A DNA stretch of 64,000 nucleotides, taken from positions 2,604,001-2,668,000 of the forward strand of contig NZ_CP077062.1 in assembly GCF_019039255.1 (NCBI RefSeq). The letters are read 5' to 3'. The notes under the pieces were generated by a model. It was not told where the DNA came from. It saw only the letters and a program-made list of their open reading frames with translations, and searched no databases. A program made the translations under genes and the position numbers. Origin of the DNA: Nocardioides panacis (lineage in GTDB: Bacteria; Actinomycetota; Actinomycetes; Propionibacteriales; Nocardioidaceae). Positions 7,950 through 52,172 of this stretch are shown one piece after another. Position 1 is the first letter of the stretch; every line of letters begins with the position of its first letter.

Positions 7950-8094
7950 GCGCTCACCCTAGGCACCGGACGTTCGCTACTGATCGGTAGATTTCCTGCG
8001 CGACGCGGGCGTGACACGATGAGCGGGGAACCAGCCCGTGACCCGGGCCGGCTCCCACCACGCAGTGCACACCGAGCACGAGAGCAGAGGAATC

Positions 8095-10947
8095 GTGGCA
8101 ACAGGTTCTGAGCAGCAGTCGTCCGAGCTGGCCGCGGAGAAGTCCGCCGAGAAGGAAGCCATGTCGCAGCCCGGCGCTCCCTCGACCCGCGCCGTCGGGC
8201 GTCCCCAGGTGATCCACGAGGGGCTGCCCACGCAGCTCCCGGACATCGATCCCGACGAGACCAAGGAGTGGCTCGAGTCGTTCGACTCGATGGTCGACGA
8301 CCGCGGCCGCAGCCGCGCGCGCTACGTGATGCTCCGCCTGCTGGAGCGAGCCCGCGAGCAGAACGTCGGCGTGCCCGCCCTGCGCAGCACGGACTACATC
8401 AACACGATCCCGCCCGAGCGTGAGCCGTGGTTCCCCGGCGACGAGGACATCGAGCGCCGGATCCGCGCCTTCCTGCGCTGGAACGCCGCCGTCACCGTGT
8501 CGACCGCGAACCGCAAGGGCCTCGAGGTCGGCGGTCACATCGCGACGTACCAGTCCTCGGCCTCGCTCTACGAGGTCGGCTTCAACCACTTCTTCAGGGG
8601 CAAGAACCACGAGGGCGGTGGCGACCAGATCTACATCCAGGGCCACGCCTCCCCCGGCATCTACGCCCGGGCGTTCCTCGAGGGCCGGCTCAACGAGACG
8701 CAGCTGTCCCGGTTCCGCCAGGAGGTGCAGCACGGCGTCGGCGAGGGCCTCTCGTCGTACCCGCACCCGCGGCTGATGCCGGACTTCTGGGAGTTCCCGA
8801 CCGTGTCGATGGGCCTCACCGCCCTGAACGCGATCTACCAGGCCCGGTTCAACCGGTACATGCAGAACCGTGGGATCAAGGACACCAGCCAGCAGCACGT
8901 CTGGGCGTTCCTGGGCGACGGCGAGATGGGCGAGCCCGAGTCGCTGGGCGCCATCGGCGTCGCGGCCCGTGAGGAGCTCGACAACCTCACCTTCGTCGTG
9001 AACTGCAACCTGCAGCAGCTCGACGGCCCGGTGCGCGGCAACGGCAAGATCATCCAGGAGCTCGAGTCGACCTTCCGGGGCGCGGGCTGGAACGTCATCA
9101 AGGTCGTCTGGGGCCGCGAGTGGGACGACCTCCTGGCCCGCGACGTCGACGGCGTGCTGGTCAACAAGATGAACAGCACCCCGGACGGGCAGTTCCAGAC
9201 CTACTCGGTCGAGAGCGGCGACTACATCCGCAACAACTTCTTCGGCGGCGACCCGCGGCTGCGCAAGATGGTCGAGCACATGACCGACGAGCAGATCGTG
9301 AAGCTGCCCCGTGGCGGCCACGACTACCGCAAGGTCTACTCGGCGTTCGACGCGGCGACCAAGCACGTCGGCCAGCCGACCGTGATCCTGGCGCACACCA
9401 TCAAGGGCTGGACGATCGACGCCCTCGAGGGCAAGAACGCCACGCACCAGATGAAGAAGCTCACCAAGTCCGACCTCAAGAAGTTCCGCGACCGGCTGTA
9501 CCTGCCGATCAGCGACAAGGAGATCGACGAGTCGGAGATCGCGCCGTTCTTCCACCCCGGCAAGGACTCCCCGGAGATCGAGTACATGCTCGAGCGCCGG
9601 CACGCCCTCGGCGGGTCGATCCCGAAGCGCGAGGTGCGCGCCAAGCTGCTCAAGCTGCCCGGCGACGAGGTGTACTCCGAGCTCAAGGCCGGCTCGGGCA
9701 AGCAGGCCATCGCCACCACGATGGCGCTGGTCCGGCTGCTCCGCGACCTGATGAAGGACAAGGAGATCGGCCAGCGCATCGTGCCGATCGCGCCGGACGA
9801 GTACCGCACGTTCGGCATGGACGGCATGTTCCCGACGGCCAAGGTCTACAACCCGATGGGCCAGCGCTACGAGTCCGTCGACCGCAACATGCTGCTGGCC
9901 TACAAGGAGTCCGCGCAGGGCCAGATGCTGCACGAGGGCATCTCCGAGGCGGGCGCGATGGCGTCCGCGACGGCAGCCGGCTCGGCGTACGCCACGCACG
10001 GCGAGCACATGATCCCGTTCTACCTGTTCTACTCGATGTTCGGCTTCCAGCGCACCGGTGACTCGATCTGGGCGATGGCCGACCAGTTGGCCAAGGGCTT
10101 CCTGATCGGCGCCACCGCGGGCCGCACCACGCTGACCGGCGAGGGGCTGCAGCACGCCGACGGCCACTCCCCGCTGCTCGCGGCGACCAACCCGGCGGTC
10201 GTGCACTACGACCCCGCGATGGCCTACGAGCTGAGCCACATCGTCCAGGACGGTCTGCGGCGGATGTACGGCGGCACCGAGAAGGACCCGGACGGCGAGA
10301 GCGTCATCTACTACCTGACGGTCTACAACGAGCCGACCGTGCAGCCCAAGGAGCCCGACGACCTCGACGTCGAGGGCCTGCTGCGCGGCATCTACCACGT
10401 GGCGACTCCCCCGCCGGTGCAGGGCGAGAAGGTCCCGCGGGTGCAGCTGCTCGCCTCCGGCGTGGGCTTCCCGTGGATCACCGAGGCGGCGAAGCTGCTG
10501 GCCGAGGACTGGGGCGTGGCGGCCGACACGTGGTCGGTGACGTCGTGGAACGAGCTGAGCCGCGACGCCGTGGCGTGCGAGGAGTGGAACCTCCTGCACC
10601 CCTCGGAGCCGGCCAAGGTCCCCTACATCACCGACAAGCTCAAGGAGGCCGAGGGGCCCGTCGTGGCGGTGAGCGACTACATGCGCGCCGTGCAGAACCA
10701 GATCGCCAAGTGGGTCCCCGGCGACTTCCACGCCCTCGGCGCGGACGGCTTCGGCTTCGCGGACACCCGTCCCGCGGCCCGCCGGTTCTTCCACATCGAC
10801 GCCCAGTCGGTCGTCGTCCAGGCCCTCGCGGCCCTCGCCCAGCGCGGCGAGGTCAAGCCCGAGGTGGTCCAGGAGGCCTTCGACAAGTACCGCATCGACG
10901 ACCCGACCGCCGTACGCGGCGTCAAGCAGGAGGGCGGCGACGCCTAG
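8095..10947 (+). CDS. aceE: Pyruvate dehydrogenase E1 component, homodimeric type
   Basis: 950 residues with the homodimeric AceE arrangement. A thiamine-diphosphate motif is visible as [10 protein letters not shown] followed by [10 protein letters not shown] near residues 280-310, and the C-terminal half has [21 protein letters not shown]. The enzyme decarboxylates pyruvate and passes acetyl units to the lipoyl E2, feeding acetyl-CoA to the adjacent fatty-acid genes. I chose the GTG at 8095 with AGAGG just upstream over an earlier in-frame ATG at 8038; an internal ATG at 8161 is a second possibility. aceE next to the FasR-fab cluster matches mycobacterial order. Confidence 0.97.
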
Positions 10948-10949
10948 CC

Positions 10950-11069
10950 GACCCGGCGCCTCTGGCGGACGCACGACCGCCGACCCGGCGACTTTGGTGG
11001 ACGAGCACAGGTGCTCGCCCGCCAGACGCGCCGGGTCGGCGGCTTTCCGGGCGCCAGAGGCGCCGGGTC
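10950..11069. repeat. Mirror-symmetric repeat element between convergent aceE and hydrolase
   Basis: Four copies of a 19-nt unit (consensus GACCCGGCGNCTYTGGCGG) lie in the order forward (10950-10968), forward (10982-11000), inverted (about 11018-11037), inverted (11051-11069). A perfect hairpin CGAGCAC-AG-GTGCTCG (11002-11017) sits in the centre. The stop codon of the minus-strand hydrolase is inside the last unit. The same architecture occurs at 50313-50420. It can fold as one long stem on either strand, so a bidirectional terminator is a reasonable reading. Confidence 0.8.
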
Positions 11070-12021
11070 AGGCGATCTCGGCCTGGCGGACAGGGGTGAC
11101 CGCCGTGGGCACCGGGACCTGCCGGCCGTTCTTGAGCAGCGACCGCCAGCGGCCGCGGTGGTACGCCGCAGCCGGGTGCGCCCGGATGAACTCGTCGACG
11201 ATCTTCACGAAGCGCTGCGGGTGGTCCTTGTGCGGGAAGTGGCCGGCGTTCGCGATCACCTCGACGGTGGCGCCGGGCGCGAACTCCGATGCGATCCCCG
11301 CGTGCTTGACCGGGATCACCGCGTCCTCGGTCCCCCATATCACGCACATCGGCATCGCCTGGGTGAGGTAGGCCCGGTCCACCATGGTGACGATCTGGCC
11401 GCGCCAGTCCACCACCGCGGACACCACGTGCCGGATGGCCCGTCGGGCGCGGGGGTCCTTGAAGGAGTCCACGATCATCGCGACCTCGTCGAGGTCACGG
11501 GCCTGCGGCAGCCCGGACGCGGCCAGGGCACGCAGCCCCGCCGTGGTCAGGTGGCGCACGCCGGGCAGGGTGACGACCCCCATCGCCTGGTGGAAGAACG
11601 GCAGCGTGATCGCCCGGATCGCCGGCGTCACCTCGGCGCCGAGGCCGCCGGGGGCGACCAGGATCATCCGCTCGGTGCGCTCGGGGAACTGGTAGGCGAA
11701 CTGCATCGCGACGCCGCCGCCGAAGCTGTGCCCGACCACGGTGACCTTGTCCACGCCCAGGACCGTGAGCAGGTCCCGCATGCCGTTGGCGTAGCCGCCC
11801 ACGCTGTAGTCCGCGCGCGGCTTGGCCGACCTGCCGTGCCCCAGCAGGTCCGGGGCGATCACGGTGTAGCGGCGCGAGAGCGCGGCGATCACCGGCAGCC
11901 AGGTGGTGTGGTCGCAGCCGAGGCCGTGCAGCAGCAGCAGCGCCGGTCCGGTGCCGACCTTGACGTACGCACGCTTGTGCCCGTGGATGGTGAGGTACTG
12001 GACCTCGATGGGCTTGGGCAT
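11068..12021 (-). CDS. Alpha/beta fold hydrolase
   Basis: 317 residues. The fold is clear from LLLLHGLGCDHTTW (oxyanion HG near residue 33), PDLLGHGRSAKP, the nucleophile elbow VGHSFGGGVAMQ near residue 97, WGTEDAVIPVKHA with the likely acidic residue, and ANAGHFPHKDHPQRF with the catalytic His. The substrate is not evident; related sequences are annotated as epoxide hydrolases, haloperoxidases or lipases. The ATG at 12021 follows CCAGGAG at good spacing. It is divergent from the FasR-like gene and convergent with aceE. Confidence 0.88.
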   Translation of the reverse strand: MPKPIEVQYLTIHGHKRAYVKVGTGPALLLLHGLGCDHTTWLPVIAALSRRYTVIAPDLLGHGRSAKPRADYSVGGYANGMRDLLTVLGVDKVTVVGHSFGGGVAMQFAYQFPERTERMILVAPGGLGAEVTPAIRAITLPFFHQAMGVVTLPGVRHLTTAGLRALAASGLPQARDLDEVAMIVDSFKDPRARRAIRHVVSAVVDWRGQIVTMVDRAYLTQAMPMCVIWGTEDAVIPVKHAGIASEFAPGATVEVIANAGHFPHKDHPQRFVKIVDEFIRAHPAAAYHRGRWRSLLKNGRQVPVPTAVTPVRQAEIA

Positions 12022-48807: not shown

Positions 48808-49628
48808 GACAGCGCCCTCCTTTCGACGGAGCGGACGAGGGCGTCGGTGAGCAGGCCGAGCAGGCTGTAGACCGCGAGGCCGACGACGATCACGTCGGTC
48901 TGCTGGAACTCGCGGGCCTGGTTGATCATGTAGCCGAGGCCGGAGGAGGCGCTGACCGTCTCCGCGACGATCAGCGACAGCCAGGCGACGCCGAGGCTCT
49001 GCCGCAGCCCCACCAGCGCCTGGGGCAGCGCCCCGGGCACGATGACGTGCCGCAGCTGCTGGCGGCGCGAGAAGTGCAGCGTCTTGGCCGCCTCGAGGAA
49101 CTTCCGGTCGATGCTCCGGATGCCCGCGAAGGTGTTGAGGTAGAGCGGGAAGGTCACCCCCAGCGCGATCAGCGCGATCTTCGGCATCTCGCCGATCCCC
49201 ATCCACACGATGAACAGCGGGATCAGGCCGAAGTGCGGCAGGGTGCGCAGCATCTGCATCGGCGGGTCGACGGCGTCCTCGCCGATCCGGCTCAGGCCCG
49301 CGACCACGGACAGCGCCAGCCCGAGGGAGGCGCCGACGGCGAAGCCGACGAGCACCCGCTGCACGGAGACCAGGGTGGCCGCCCCGAGCGTGCCGTCCGA
49401 GACCAGGCCGCCGGCAGCGACCGCGATCTGGATCGGCGAGGCGATCTTCTCCTCGGGAAGCACGCCGCTGCTGCTGAGCGCCTGCCACAGGCAGAGCAGC
49501 AGCACCGGGCTGACCCAGCGCCGCAGCCAGGACAGCCGGGCGGTTCGACGCCGGGCCGGGACACGTTCACGCGCAGGCCCCGGGGGACGTGCGTCCTCCA
49601 GCTGCTGCGTGGGCACGAGAGTGGTCAT
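48795..49628 (-). CDS. ssuC: Sulfonate ABC transporter permease
   Basis: 277 residues with an Arg-rich cytoplasmic N-terminus and about six membrane helices. The EAA-type loop KFLEAAKTLHFSRRQQLRHVIVPGALPQ near residue 175 contacts the ATPase. It is first of the minus-strand ssu operon; its 5' side carries a 21-bp palindrome (49644-49664) that may control it. Confidence 0.92.
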   Translation of the reverse strand: MTTLVPTQQLEDARPPGPARERVPARRRTARLSWLRRWVSPVLLLCLWQALSSSGVLPEEKIASPIQIAVAAGGLVSDGTLGAATLVSVQRVLVGFAVGASLGLALSVVAGLSRIGEDAVDPPMQMLRTLPHFGLIPLFIVWMGIGEMPKIALIALGVTFPLYLNTFAGIRSIDRKFLEAAKTLHFSRRQQLRHVIVPGALPQALVGLRQSLGVAWLSLIVAETVSASSGLGYMINQAREFQQTDVIVVGLAVYSLLGLLTDALVRSVERRALSWRS

Positions 49629-49643
49629 GTCGAGCCAGCGTGG

Positions 49644-49664
49644 TGACTTAATAGGACTAAGTCA
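49644..49664. promoter_or_regulatory. Palindromic operator candidate at the ssu divergent promoter
   Basis: TGACTTA (49644-49650) and TAAGTCA (49658-49664) are perfect 7-bp arms with a 7-nt spacer, in an AT-rich island 16 bases upstream of the ssuC start. The region is the shared 5' side of ssuC and the flavin reductase. A sulfur-responsive regulator is a plausible ligand. Confidence 0.6.
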
Positions 49665-49712
49665 AGTAAGACACACGACAATGTGAGACAATTACAGTCC
49701 TCGTGCCACTTG

Positions 49713-49740
49713 TTGCACTTCTCGATCAACTTACTAGAGT
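49713..49740 (+). promoter_or_regulatory. Candidate promoter for the flavin reductase gene
   Basis: TTGCAC (49713-49718) and TAGAGT (49735-49740) are 16 bases apart in the AT-rich gap, about 30 bases before the TTG start at 49772. Moderate match only. Confidence 0.35.
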
Positions 49741-49771
49741 TATCGAATGCCGTCCTCCGCTGAGACCCCCC

Positions 49772-50314
49772 TTGCGCACCACCGTCCTGTGCGGCAACCC
49801 GCGCCCCGCCTCACGCACCCTCGACGTGGCCCTTAGCGTCGCCGACGCGCTGACCGGCCTGGCACCGGACGGCTCCCCCGAGCCGCAGGTGATCGACCTG
49901 GCGCTGCTCGCGCCCGTGCTGTTCGCCGCGGACCGCGACGAGCGGGCCGCCGTGGACGCCGCCCTCGCGGCGGTCAGCGGCAGCGACCTGCTCGTGGTGG
50001 CGACACCCGTCTACAAGGGCAGCTACTCCGGGCTGCTCAAGGCGTTCCTCGACTTCCTGCCCTACGGCGCCCTGCGCGGGACGGTCGCCGTCCCGCTCAC
50101 GGTGATGGCCCAGCCGCACCACGCGCTTGCCGGCGACGTACACCTGCGGCCGCTGCTGGTGGAGCTCGGCGCCGGGGTGCCGACAGCCGGCGTCGTGGTC
50201 ACCGAGAGCGAACTGGGCGCCGGTCCGGTGGACCGCTGGGTCGCGACGCACGCCGCGACGGCGGTCGGCAGCGCGCTGCTCGCGCACCGGCAGCGAGAGG
50301 ACGCCCTCGCCTGA
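49772..50314 (+). CDS. NAD(P)H-dependent FMN reductase (SsuE-like)
   Basis: About 180 residues of the flavodoxin-like reductase family: LRTTVLCGNPRPASRTLD at the start binds FMN phosphate, VVATPVYKGSYSGLLKAFLDFLP near residue 75 is the second signature. It should supply FMNH2 to the SsuD monooxygenase. I start it at TTG 49772; an in-frame GTG at 49703 would add 23 residues coded by the AT-rich promoter region and not seen in the family. No clear ribosome-binding site. Its TGA lies within a repeat unit of the 50313-50420 element. Confidence 0.85.
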   Translation: MRTTVLCGNPRPASRTLDVALSVADALTGLAPDGSPEPQVIDLALLAPVLFAADRDERAAVDAALAAVSGSDLLVVATPVYKGSYSGLLKAFLDFLPYGALRGTVAVPLTVMAQPHHALAGDVHLRPLLVELGAGVPTAGVVVTESELGAGPVDRWVATHAATAVGSALLAHRQREDALA

Positions 50315-50420
50315 CCCGGCGCCTCTGGCGCTGAAAGCCCGCCGACCCGGCGCCTCTGGCGGCAGTCCGACGCCAAAGACGCCGGGTGGGCGGGCGTCTG
50401 TCCGCCAGAGTCGCCGGGTC
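50313..50420. repeat. Mirror-symmetric repeat element between convergent reductase and response regulator
   Basis: Four units of about 19 nt: forward at 50313-50330 and 50344-50362, inverted at 50369-50387 and 50402-50420. They match the element at 10950-11069. The TGA of the reductase (50312-50314) and the stop of the response regulator (50419-50421) overlap the outermost units. Same architecture and same position class (between convergent genes). Confidence 0.82.
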
Positions 50421-51027
50421 AGAGCCAGCCGTTCAGCTCCGCGACCCGGGCGGCCTCCGCCCGGTTGGCGGTGCCGGTCTTGCCGATGGCCGAGGACAGG
50501 TGGTTGCGCACGGTCCCCTCGGAGAGCACCAGCGTCCGGGCGATGGTCGCGACGGCCGCGCCGTCCCGGGCCGCCCGCAGCACGTCGGTCTCGCGCACGG
50601 TGAGCGGCGAGTCGCCACTGACCAGGCTGTCCGCGGCCAGCCCGGGGTCGACCACCCGCAGCCCCGCGTGCACCCGGCGTACGGCGTCCGCGAGCTGCCG
50701 CGCGGGGGTGTCCTTGACGACGAACCCGCCCGCCCCGGCCTGGAGCGCCCGGCGCAGGAAGCCCGGACGGCCGAACGTGGTCACGATCAGCACCCGGACC
50801 TCGGGCAGGGCGGCCCGCAGCGCCCGGGTCGCCTCGATGCCGTCCAGGCCGGGCATCTCCACGTCGAGCAGCGCCACGTCGGGCCGGTGCTCGCGGGCGG
50901 CCGGCAGCACGGCGTCGCCGCTGCCCACCTCGGCCACCACCTCGAGGTCCGGCTCGAGGTCGAGCAGCGCCGCCAGGGCGCCGCGCACGAGGGCCTGGTC
51001 GTCGGCCAGCAGCAGCCGGATCGTCAT
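50419..51027 (-). CDS. NarL/FixJ-type response regulator (DesR-like)
   Basis: 202 residues. The receiver domain has LLADDQALVRGA with acidic pair near residue 9, phospho-Asp in VALLDVEMPGLDG near residue 54, and VKDTPARQLADAV with the conserved Lys. The C-terminal LuxR-type HTH is LTVRETDVLRAARDG...IARTLVLSEGTVRNHLSSAIGK near residues 145-190. It pairs with the histidine kinase, whose stop overlaps its ATG. The operon carries an ABC-2 exporter. Confidence 0.93.
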   Translation of the reverse strand: MTIRLLLADDQALVRGALAALLDLEPDLEVVAEVGSGDAVLPAAREHRPDVALLDVEMPGLDGIEATRALRAALPEVRVLIVTTFGRPGFLRRALQAGAGGFVVKDTPARQLADAVRRVHAGLRVVDPGLAADSLVSGDSPLTVRETDVLRAARDGAAVATIARTLVLSEGTVRNHLSSAIGKTGTANRAEAARVAELNGWL

Positions 51028-52172
51028 CGGGCGCTCACCGACAGCGCGAACCCGCGCGGGTCGAGGGTGCGGGTGACCAGCACCGCGCCGGCCGCGGTGG
51101 CCCGCTCGCGCAGGCCCTCGAGCCCGGTGCCGGCCCGCACCCCGTCGTCGCGGGGGCCCGCACCGTCGTCGCTGACCTCCACGGCCGAGGCGCCCAGCCG
51201 GACCGTGCAGCGGGTCGCGCCGCTGTGCCGGATGACGTTCGTGACGCCCTCGCGCACCGTCCACGCGAACAGCTCCCGCAGCTCGGAGGGCACCTCGTCG
51301 GTGCTGTTCGGCAGGTCGGCGTCGATCTCCGCCGCGCGCAGCGCCTCCCGCGCCCGCGCCAGCTCGCCCGGCAGCGTCAGGTCGCGGTAGCCCTCCACCG
51401 CCCGGCGGACGTCGGCCAGGGCGTCCCGGCTGAGCCGCTCGAGGTCGAGCAGCTCGGCGCGGGCCCGTTCGGGGTCGACGTCGAGGAGCCGGTTGGCCAG
51501 CTCGGCCTTCACGGTGATGACGGTGAGCGAGTGGCCCAGGATGTCGTGCAGGTCGCGGGCGAACCGGTTGCGCTCGTCGGCCACCGCGAGCCGGGCGTTC
51601 GCCTCCTCGGCGCGGATCAGCTCCACGTTGCGCGCCATCAGCTGGCTGACGCCCCACATCGCGAACGCCGCCGTGCAGATGGCGAAGGTCAGGCCGGCCG
51701 GGCTGGACCAGCCCGCCAGCGTGTGGCCCAGCACCTCGGTCACCAGCGCCAGCACCCCGGTGAGCACGGCCGCCCACCGGGCCGGCAGGCAGAGCACGCC
51801 GAGCACCGCGACGTACACCAGGCCGGAGGCGCCGGCCTCGCCCACGCAGACGCACATGACCACCGTGAGCGCGAGCAGCGTGCCGAGGACCGCCACGGCC
51901 GCGGCCGGCTCGACGCCCAGCTGCATCCGCTGCCGGCGCCGCCGCACCCAGGTGAACGACGCCACGTAGACCGAGGCGAAGGACAGGGTCGCCAGCAGCC
52001 CCACCCAGCCGCGCAGCGGGTCCGTGCCCTGCCAGGCCAGGTCCCACGCCGCCCGGAACGCGTCGGCCAGGAAGACCAGCCAGACCGCGGCGAACAGCAC
52101 GCCGAGGCGCCCGGGCCGGCCGTCACGGCTGGTCCAGGCACCCGTCGGGGTCAGCGAGCTCACGAGGGTCAC
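51024..52172 (-). CDS. Sensor histidine kinase (DesK-like)
   Basis: 382 residues. About five or six membrane helices fill residues 22-165. The phospho-accepting His is in FARDLHDILGHSLTVI near residue 211, and the ATPase domain has REGVTNVIRHSGAT (N box) near residue 310 and VSDDGAGPRDDG. This HisKA_3 type pairs with NarL-type regulators and often senses membrane or drug stress. It overlaps the regulator by four bases and follows the ABC permease by 10 bases. Confidence 0.93.
   Translation of the reverse strand: MTLVSSLTPTGAWTSRDGRPGRLGVLFAAVWLVFLADAFRAAWDLAWQGTDPLRGWVGLLATLSFASVYVASFTWVRRRRQRMQLGVEPAAAVAVLGTLLALTVVMCVCVGEAGASGLVYVAVLGVLCLPARWAAVLTGVLALVTEVLGHTLAGWSSPAGLTFAICTAAFAMWGVSQLMARNVELIRAEEANARLAVADERNRFARDLHDILGHSLTVITVKAELANRLLDVDPERARAELLDLERLSRDALADVRRAVEGYRDLTLPGELARAREALRAAEIDADLPNSTDEVPSELRELFAWTVREGVTNVIRHSGATRCTVRLGASAVEVSDDGAGPRDDGVRAGTGLEGLRERATAAGAVLVTRTLDPRGFALSVSAR

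Follow-up and report, generated by a model that had tools for sequence, protein, structure and literature searches.

Introduction

Arrays of repeated, directional protein sites just downstream of genes, such as the TTF-I/Sal-box and Reb1 terminator arrays of eukaryotic rDNA, stop RNA polymerase. The MIRU of mycobacteria are actinobacterial intergenic repeats that overlap stop codons; they have larger units than those described here and are not known as inward-facing phased arrays. To our knowledge, the way in which transcription ends between abutting convergent genes in high-GC actinobacteria is poorly understood.

Among other bacterial repeats, BIMEs and REPs have been reported as binding sites of gyrase, IHF and Pol I (PMC2817692). 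The GTAG and CGTC REPs are described as lying predominantly downstream of genes, between convergent or unidirectional ORFs; the ends of GTAG REPs often give a TAG stop to the flanking ORFs, and CGTC REPs have no dedicated RAYT (PMC3733652). The main text of that paper does not contain the word Actinobacteria. E. coli REPs within 15 nt of a stop codon are reported to stall ribosomes (PMC12306157). Since GTAG REPs are thus described as supplying stops (PMC3733652) and stop-proximal REPs as stalling ribosomes (PMC12306157), an overlap of stop codon and repeat is not in itself new in kind.

Here, we describe arrays found in a 64,000-nucleotide stretch of the Nocardioides panacis genome ("the window"; NZ_CP077062.1, positions 2,604,001 to 2,668,000). 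Like the BIMEs of enterobacteria, they are extragenic, multi-copy and made of regularly spaced units in opposite orientations. Unlike BIMEs, they have units that are not individually palindromic and that are set 32 bp apart in inward-facing blocks (F..F R..R), not in alternating orientation; moreover, species differ in the core, and no RAYT-type transposase gene was found. They also differ from the GTAG and CGTC REPs, as the stop codon pre-exists and there is neither a tagged stem in each unit nor a RAYT. The distance to the stop codon is like that of the stop-proximal REPs of E. coli; those are palindromes acting on translation, whereas the geometry here is that of phased DNA sites. With the MIRU, the arrays share the actinobacterial setting, the intergenic position and the overlap with stops, but not the unit size or the arrangement. 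The likeness to the TTF-I and Reb1 arrays lies in the way of working only, and the bound protein is putative in our case. In the open-access literature searched, we found no description of 32-bp phased, inward-facing, stop-flush arrays with lineage-specific cores.

Results

Four copies of a 17-nt core, ACCCGGCGNSTNTGGCG, are present at positions 50314-50419 of the window, two forward and then two inverted. An NADPH-dependent FMN reductase gene (49703..50314, plus strand; Pfam FMN_red) ends in a TGA at 50312..50314, the A of which is base 1 of the first forward core (50314..50330). The second forward core (50345..50361) begins 31 bp after the first. After a gap of 9 nt, the two inverted cores follow on the minus strand (50371..50387 and 50403..50419), 32 bp apart. 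The last core overlaps by one base the TGA (TCA on the plus strand, 50419..50421) of a LuxR-type response regulator gene on the minus strand (50419..51027; Response_reg and GerE). Thus, each of the two stops has one base in common with a core.

The original prediction, that the forward-forward-inverted-inverted order recurs about 39 kb away, was correct: a twin site lies at 10951-11068, 39.4 kb from the window site, between a pyruvate dehydrogenase E1 (aceE-like) gene (8038..10947, plus strand) and an alpha/beta hydrolase gene (11068..12021, minus strand). Its forward cores (10951-10967 and 10983-10999) are separated by a 20-nt gap from its inverted cores (11020-11036 and 11052-11068). The idea that both flanking stops lie inside the repeat holds for the reductase and the regulator at the window site, and fails at the twin. 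There, the last core overlaps the hydrolase stop (TCA, 11068-11070), whereas the aceE TAG (10945-10947) ends 3 nt short of the first core. Because this TAG lies outside the core, embedding of both stops is not general to every copy. At two mismatches or fewer, the core is matched 8 times in the 64 kb against 0.70 expected, and 8 matches were reached in none of 100 shuffles.

The whole genome of N. panacis (hereafter "own"; 4.90 Mb, one contig) contains 80 exact cores of the NCTN form and 45 of the NGTN form. With one mismatch allowed, the NCTN core was detected 167 times, compared with 7 times for a reversed-pattern control. All exact NCTN and NGTN cores served as seeds for own sites, along with 1-mismatch seeds to about 1.25 Mb, and further sites are possible. 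By a weight matrix applied to the window and 43 loci, there are at least 171 core units at at least 55 sites, at least 43 of which are multi-unit. The training units scored 14-32, and the best score in the window outside the two sites was 10. The wider unit consensus in the own genome is CCGCYGACCCGGCGMSTCTGGCGGC. Several of the 12 single-unit sites are inside genes and may be chance matches; single units with more than one mismatch were left out of the locus core listing and the stop-to-core count. Two stretches near the contig ends, L031 (G000:C1:19500-25600) and L074 (G000:C1:4893500-4899600), are 99.95% identical over 6,072 bases, which looks, from the sequence, as if the overlap of a circular chromosome had been left untrimmed. 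The array site was therefore counted once, with L074 treated as an assembly duplicate of L031 and excluded from every count.

The forward-then-inverted order was observed in 31 of the 32 own sites with both orientations. The exception is L051 ('-+-'), whose first unit has 2 mismatches and sits in a gene. One orientation alone is present in 11 of the 43 multi-unit sites; among these sites, L041 (3002-3114) has four forward units and no inverted arm behind a minus-strand gene, contrary to the usual orientation. Among relatives, the order is broken in four clusters (two in G004, one in G002 and one in G083; seeds at one mismatch or fewer). The arrays do not have the form of a CRISPR, with its same-orientation direct repeats and unique spacers: there are dozens of short arrays, both orientations occur in 32 of 54, and the linkers are alike within a run.

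Twenty of the 43 own multi-unit sites lie at convergent junctions, 19 at tandem and 3 at divergent ones, and one is inside a gene. Since the background in the same loci is 39 convergent, 178 tandem and 55 divergent junctions, convergent junctions are enriched (20/42 versus 39/272, P 3e-6), and the depletion of divergent ones gives P 0.053. At 18 of the 19 tandem sites, the array lies closer to a gene's 3′ end than to the 5′ end of its neighbour. The exceptions to the usual placement are L041 and L045, together with the divergent L042, L057 (3003) and L062.

Gene ends were assigned by a codon-score gene caller made for this analysis. From 87 run ends, 56 gene ends were retained that have an ORF score above 30 and a sense-strand stop within 120 nt upstream. 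The genome-wide count of units starting in the TGA of a gene, suggested with the original prediction, gave 28 of these 56 ends, at which the A of TGA is core base 1. At 22 of the remaining 28 ends, the last stop base is 4-17 nt upstream of the core, and partial units often occur in between (for example, TGACCC|ACCCGG). Thus, placement exactly at gene ends is a recurrent property. In relatives with other cores, a stop-to-core distance of 0 was found at 16 of 28 ends in G004, more weakly in G002 (3/13) and at 1 of 4 ends in G101. In G083, the distance is 0-2 nt at 6 of 9 ends. At L209 (G004:C250), the orthologue of the own L060 junction, one forward/inverted pair of a further core, CCGCCGAGTTGTCAGGCG, stands directly behind both stops. 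Other GC-rich 3′-end repeats, such as GAGGTGCGAGCGAAGCGAGCCTCG and GTCTGCGCTCGCTCCGCTCGC, follow several stops in G002 and G004 (L170, L171) and apparently form a separate family.

The proposal that the repeat unit itself supplies the TGA was not supported. Orthologues in six congeners (G001-G006) were available for 19 of the 28 overlapped ends. In 75 comparisons, the orthologue ends at the same final codon 53 times and within 3 amino acids 71 times, and its stop is TGA 65 times; these comparisons are not independent, as they come from 19 genes in up to 6 species. Without the 6 orthologue rows that have an array of their own by the lag scan described below, the same end codon was found in 51 of 69. 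Furthermore, internal units mostly have CGA, not TGA, at the stop-equivalent position (CCG|A in 54 of 84, CTG|A in 16 of 84). In the compared congener stretches, an orthologue is present for 22 of the 56 ends and absent for 34; of the latter, 9 were queried and 3 gave matches (L052+, L052- and L069+). For the reductase tail, the six congeners gave no match at E 1e-10. Downstream of the orthologue stops, the sequence is unrelated, except in relatives with an array of their own. The aceE/hydrolase junction, which reads TAG-CCG-[array]-TCA in the own genome, is near-empty in relatives: TGA-CCG-TCA in G004, TGA-TCA in G003 and TGA-C-TCA in G006. Because orthologues end at the same codon and these junctions are near-empty, the arrays were added beside pre-existing stops. 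The original prediction held that such a finding, the same final codon followed by unrelated sequence, would mean a coincidental overlap. The finding itself was made, but that conclusion does not follow, because the register of stop and core recurs genome-wide and, with a different core, in G004. The four letters CTGA occur at 26 of the 28 own overlapped ends and in 49 of the 75 orthologues (Fisher P 0.005). From this excess, a target preference for CTGA or a later conversion of stops to CTGA is possible.

Same-strand spacing in the own genome (83 pairs) is 32 in 71 pairs, 31 in 9, 29 in 2 and 54 in 1, the last inside a gene. The spacing of 32 also prevails in G006 (59/63, in the loci compared), G004 (35/36), G002 (42/45) and G083 (20/20); in G005 it is loose (32 in 13 of 37, range 17-64). 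Cores are alike between sites (0.90), whereas linkers are not: their likeness is 0.52, with 0.54 given by column composition. Within a run, linkers are alike (0.83). Loops of equal length have a likeness of 0.36-0.42, that is, they are unrelated. Thus, length is conserved where sequence is not.

The gap between opposing arms at the 32 own sites is 9 or 10 in 21 and 20 in 4, followed by 31, 41, 52, 71, 148, 17 and 4, so that the main series (9/10, 20, 31, 41, 52) steps by about 10.5 bp. The corresponding series are 24, 33/34, 44/45 and 76/78 in G004 and 33/34, 43/44, 54, 96 and 159 in G002. When six genomes were pooled (22 displacement classes), phasing at 10.5 bp gave P 1e-4, and the mean cosine was highest at 10.5 among 10 periods tried. 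Taken alone, G002 (P 1e-4) and G004 (P 0.01) are phased, and the own genome (P 0.08) and G083 (P 0.16) do not reach significance. Gaps out of phase are 4, 17 and 148 in the own genome, 38 in G083, 142 in G006 and 123 in G005. The 32-bp period and the pooled 10.5-bp stepping agree with a phased array, in which sites lie on one helical face, with two of the four genomes individually non-significant.

Tandem pairs of the own core type were detected in 3 of 294 family genomes (own, G005 and G006). Among 120 family genomes, another core type, CGCCGAGGCG, occurs at 32-bp spacing in G002 and G004 of the same genus and in G033, G083, G101, G121, G127 and G136 of genus g5. The cores of G004, G002 and G083 (CGCCGAGGCG...) thus differ from the own core, and the 32-bp geometry is alike. 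A third core type, GCCGAGTCGGCGCGTC, is common to G003 and G005, and G006 also carries AGACGGCGCGTCTGGCG. A tree from 15 genes (11-15 per species) places G002 and G006 as sisters (support 1.0), yet their main cores differ. Across the class, the CGCCGAGGCG motif at exact 32 spacing was found in 22 of 394 genomes, nearly all with a single match; G033 has 4, G458 has 3 and G430 has 2. In genomes without arrays, CGCCGAGGCG-type pair-motif matches are spaced 30 or 33 and once 31, as expected of coding repeats. A sequence-agnostic lag scan of 200 kb each of G003, G014, G101 and G018, which has low power, gave 1, 0, 1 and 0 matches at lag 32, those of G003 and G101 being units of known core types. 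The same scan gave 2 lag-32 matches in the 64-kb window. At other lags, for example 24, 36, 39 and 42, as many as 6 matches came up.

A lag scan was also performed on 81 orthologous 3′ regions. Six matches appeared at lag 32, at 4 distinct own ends; lags 31 and 33 gave none, and no other lag between 20 and 60 gave more than 2. The core differs from the own core in 4 of the 6 regions and is the same in 2 (G006). In a small control of 44 further gene ends from these loci, none had a shared-position array. The response regulator of the window has an array behind it in the own genome, G006 and G002, each with a different core. Behind the G006 orthologue (L147, 18-220), there are seven 32-bp units with the core AGACGGCGCGTCTGGCG.

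In the reverse direction, 33 gene tails beside G004 and G002 arrays were searched in the own genome, and 28 were matched, several of them weakly. Three of the 28 fall on own arrays (1840621, 3288641 and 3309114) against about 0.36 expected (P about 0.006, computed with 27 matched tails and an estimated background of 1.3%, roughly 60 in some 4,650 gene ends). The G004 tail L261- belongs by sequence to the same family as the tail landing at 3309114. One gene family (C-terminus ...FTPDLSRLGEYVVADYL...) has a 3′-end array in three species (L057 in the own genome, L261 in G004 and L283 in G002), with a core in the own genome that differs from that in G004 and G002.

The arrays might be read as RNA. 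A bidirectional terminator or 3′-end stabiliser would form a long hairpin behind the stop in either transcript, and would end or protect both mRNAs or stall the terminating ribosome. The stretch 50305-50430 does fold strongly (-94.4 kcal/mol, z -8.8), and this reading would suit the forward-then-inverted order, the position of the arrays flush with 3′ ends, their excess at convergent junctions, and the reported stop-proximal effect of REPs as a precedent (PMC12306157). However, a strong single-strand fold is what any inverted array of this kind gives. Over all 17 core positions, the inner arms slightly exceed shuffled arms in likeness (484/544 versus 475.3, P 0.04), but the four variable positions show no covariation between the inner arms (78/128 identical versus 72.5 shuffled, P 0.14; at core position 9, 10/32 versus 10.2), and the outer arms are no more alike than shuffled (426/476 versus 429.5). 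Inside the units there is no pairing signal either: an alignment fold of the 66 distinct own units gave just 4 (sense) or 6 (antisense) pairs, equal to shuffled counts, and the MFE is -16.9 versus -16.6 with linker letters shuffled. The window site lacks the form of an intrinsic terminator, as its hairpin ends in the flanking stop codons with no T-run after. The 11 one-directional arrays, and a G002 array at the regulator end with different, non-matching cores in its two arms, also argue against a hairpin, which gives no reason for the 10.5-bp stepping of loops or the fixed 32-nt period. We therefore consider the RNA-level explanation unlikely. Since helical phasing is a property of DNA, and the variable positions and unit interiors have no pairing signal, a DNA-bound protein array is favoured. 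Rfam, at gathering score, gave nothing for 49500-51200 of the window, apart from two sub-threshold microRNA matches (22.1 and 18.6 bits). A readthrough peptide was rejected on inspection: a period of 32 nt is not divisible by 3, and the core base that varies most would fall at a second codon position.

Discussion

The arrays have a regular geometry, a pooled helical phasing and a recurrent position at gene ends, and their core changes between species while some positions are kept. There is, in our judgment, an even chance that they serve as binding platforms on double-stranded DNA where transcription units end, with sites for a putative protein. Each 17-nt core would be a directional site for a putative sequence-specific protein. 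Units would follow about every three helical turns, with inward-pointing arms mostly in helical register, so that bound copies would align on one face of the DNA. Placed directly against pre-existing stop codons, a bound array may halt or insulate read-through or converging RNA polymerases. Alternatively, it may anchor topology through gyrase or a nucleoid protein, as BIMEs do in enterobacteria. We read the arrays as BIME-like in location and layout, with a bound protein that would probably act as a barrier to transcription or in topology.

A more specific form of the protein-bound reading is possible but doubtful, namely a factor-dependent system for ending transcription. A lineage-specific DNA-binding protein on oriented, stop-abutting sites three turns apart would block RNA polymerase where transcription units end, especially converging ones. 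Protein and core would co-evolve, and therefore the core would turn over between sister species while the geometry and some array positions persist.

A selfish, REP-like mobile repeat without host function, targeted in its insertion to stop codons and growing by tandem duplication, is rather improbable. Such a repeat would account for the near-empty aceE/hydrolase junctions of G004, G003 and G006, the patchy distribution of the own core's tandem pairs, the likeness of linkers within a run and the bias of own overlapped stops to CTGA. Between sites, however, just the core is common, not the linkers or loops; no target-site duplication was seen at the one junction inspected; and some positions keep an array while the core differs. 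The Y1 transposase of RAYT type (PF01797) is absent from the own genome and G001-G006, and was detected in 2 of 120 family genomes, compared with 5 of 14 control genomes. The own arrays are extragenic, high in copy and 3′ of genes, as REPs and BIMEs are. By the alignment fold of the 66 distinct units, the unit is not an imperfect palindrome with a stable stem. Thus, the lack of a unit palindrome and of a PF01797 gene rules out membership of the REP/RAYT systems. The own consensus also has no GTAG and no stem of the GTAG/CGTC type beside which such a tag would stand. Units with G at core position 10 hold CGTC or GGTC within the core, and GTAG is present in some units of G004. A chance overlap of a GC-rich repeat with TGA codons, which would fit stops that pre-date the arrays where orthologues are comparable, is refuted by the genome-wide count, with the same register at 28 of 56 own ends and a distance of 0 at 16 of 28 G004 ends with a different core, and is extremely improbable.

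The arrays look like a previously unrecognised kind of protein-bound marker at gene ends. A class of sequence sits exactly at abutting convergent gene ends in these actinobacteria, and its geometry predicts a DNA-binding protein. Arrays with different cores behind the same genes in the sisters G002 and G006 would be a clear-cut example of concerted binding-site change across dozens of loci.
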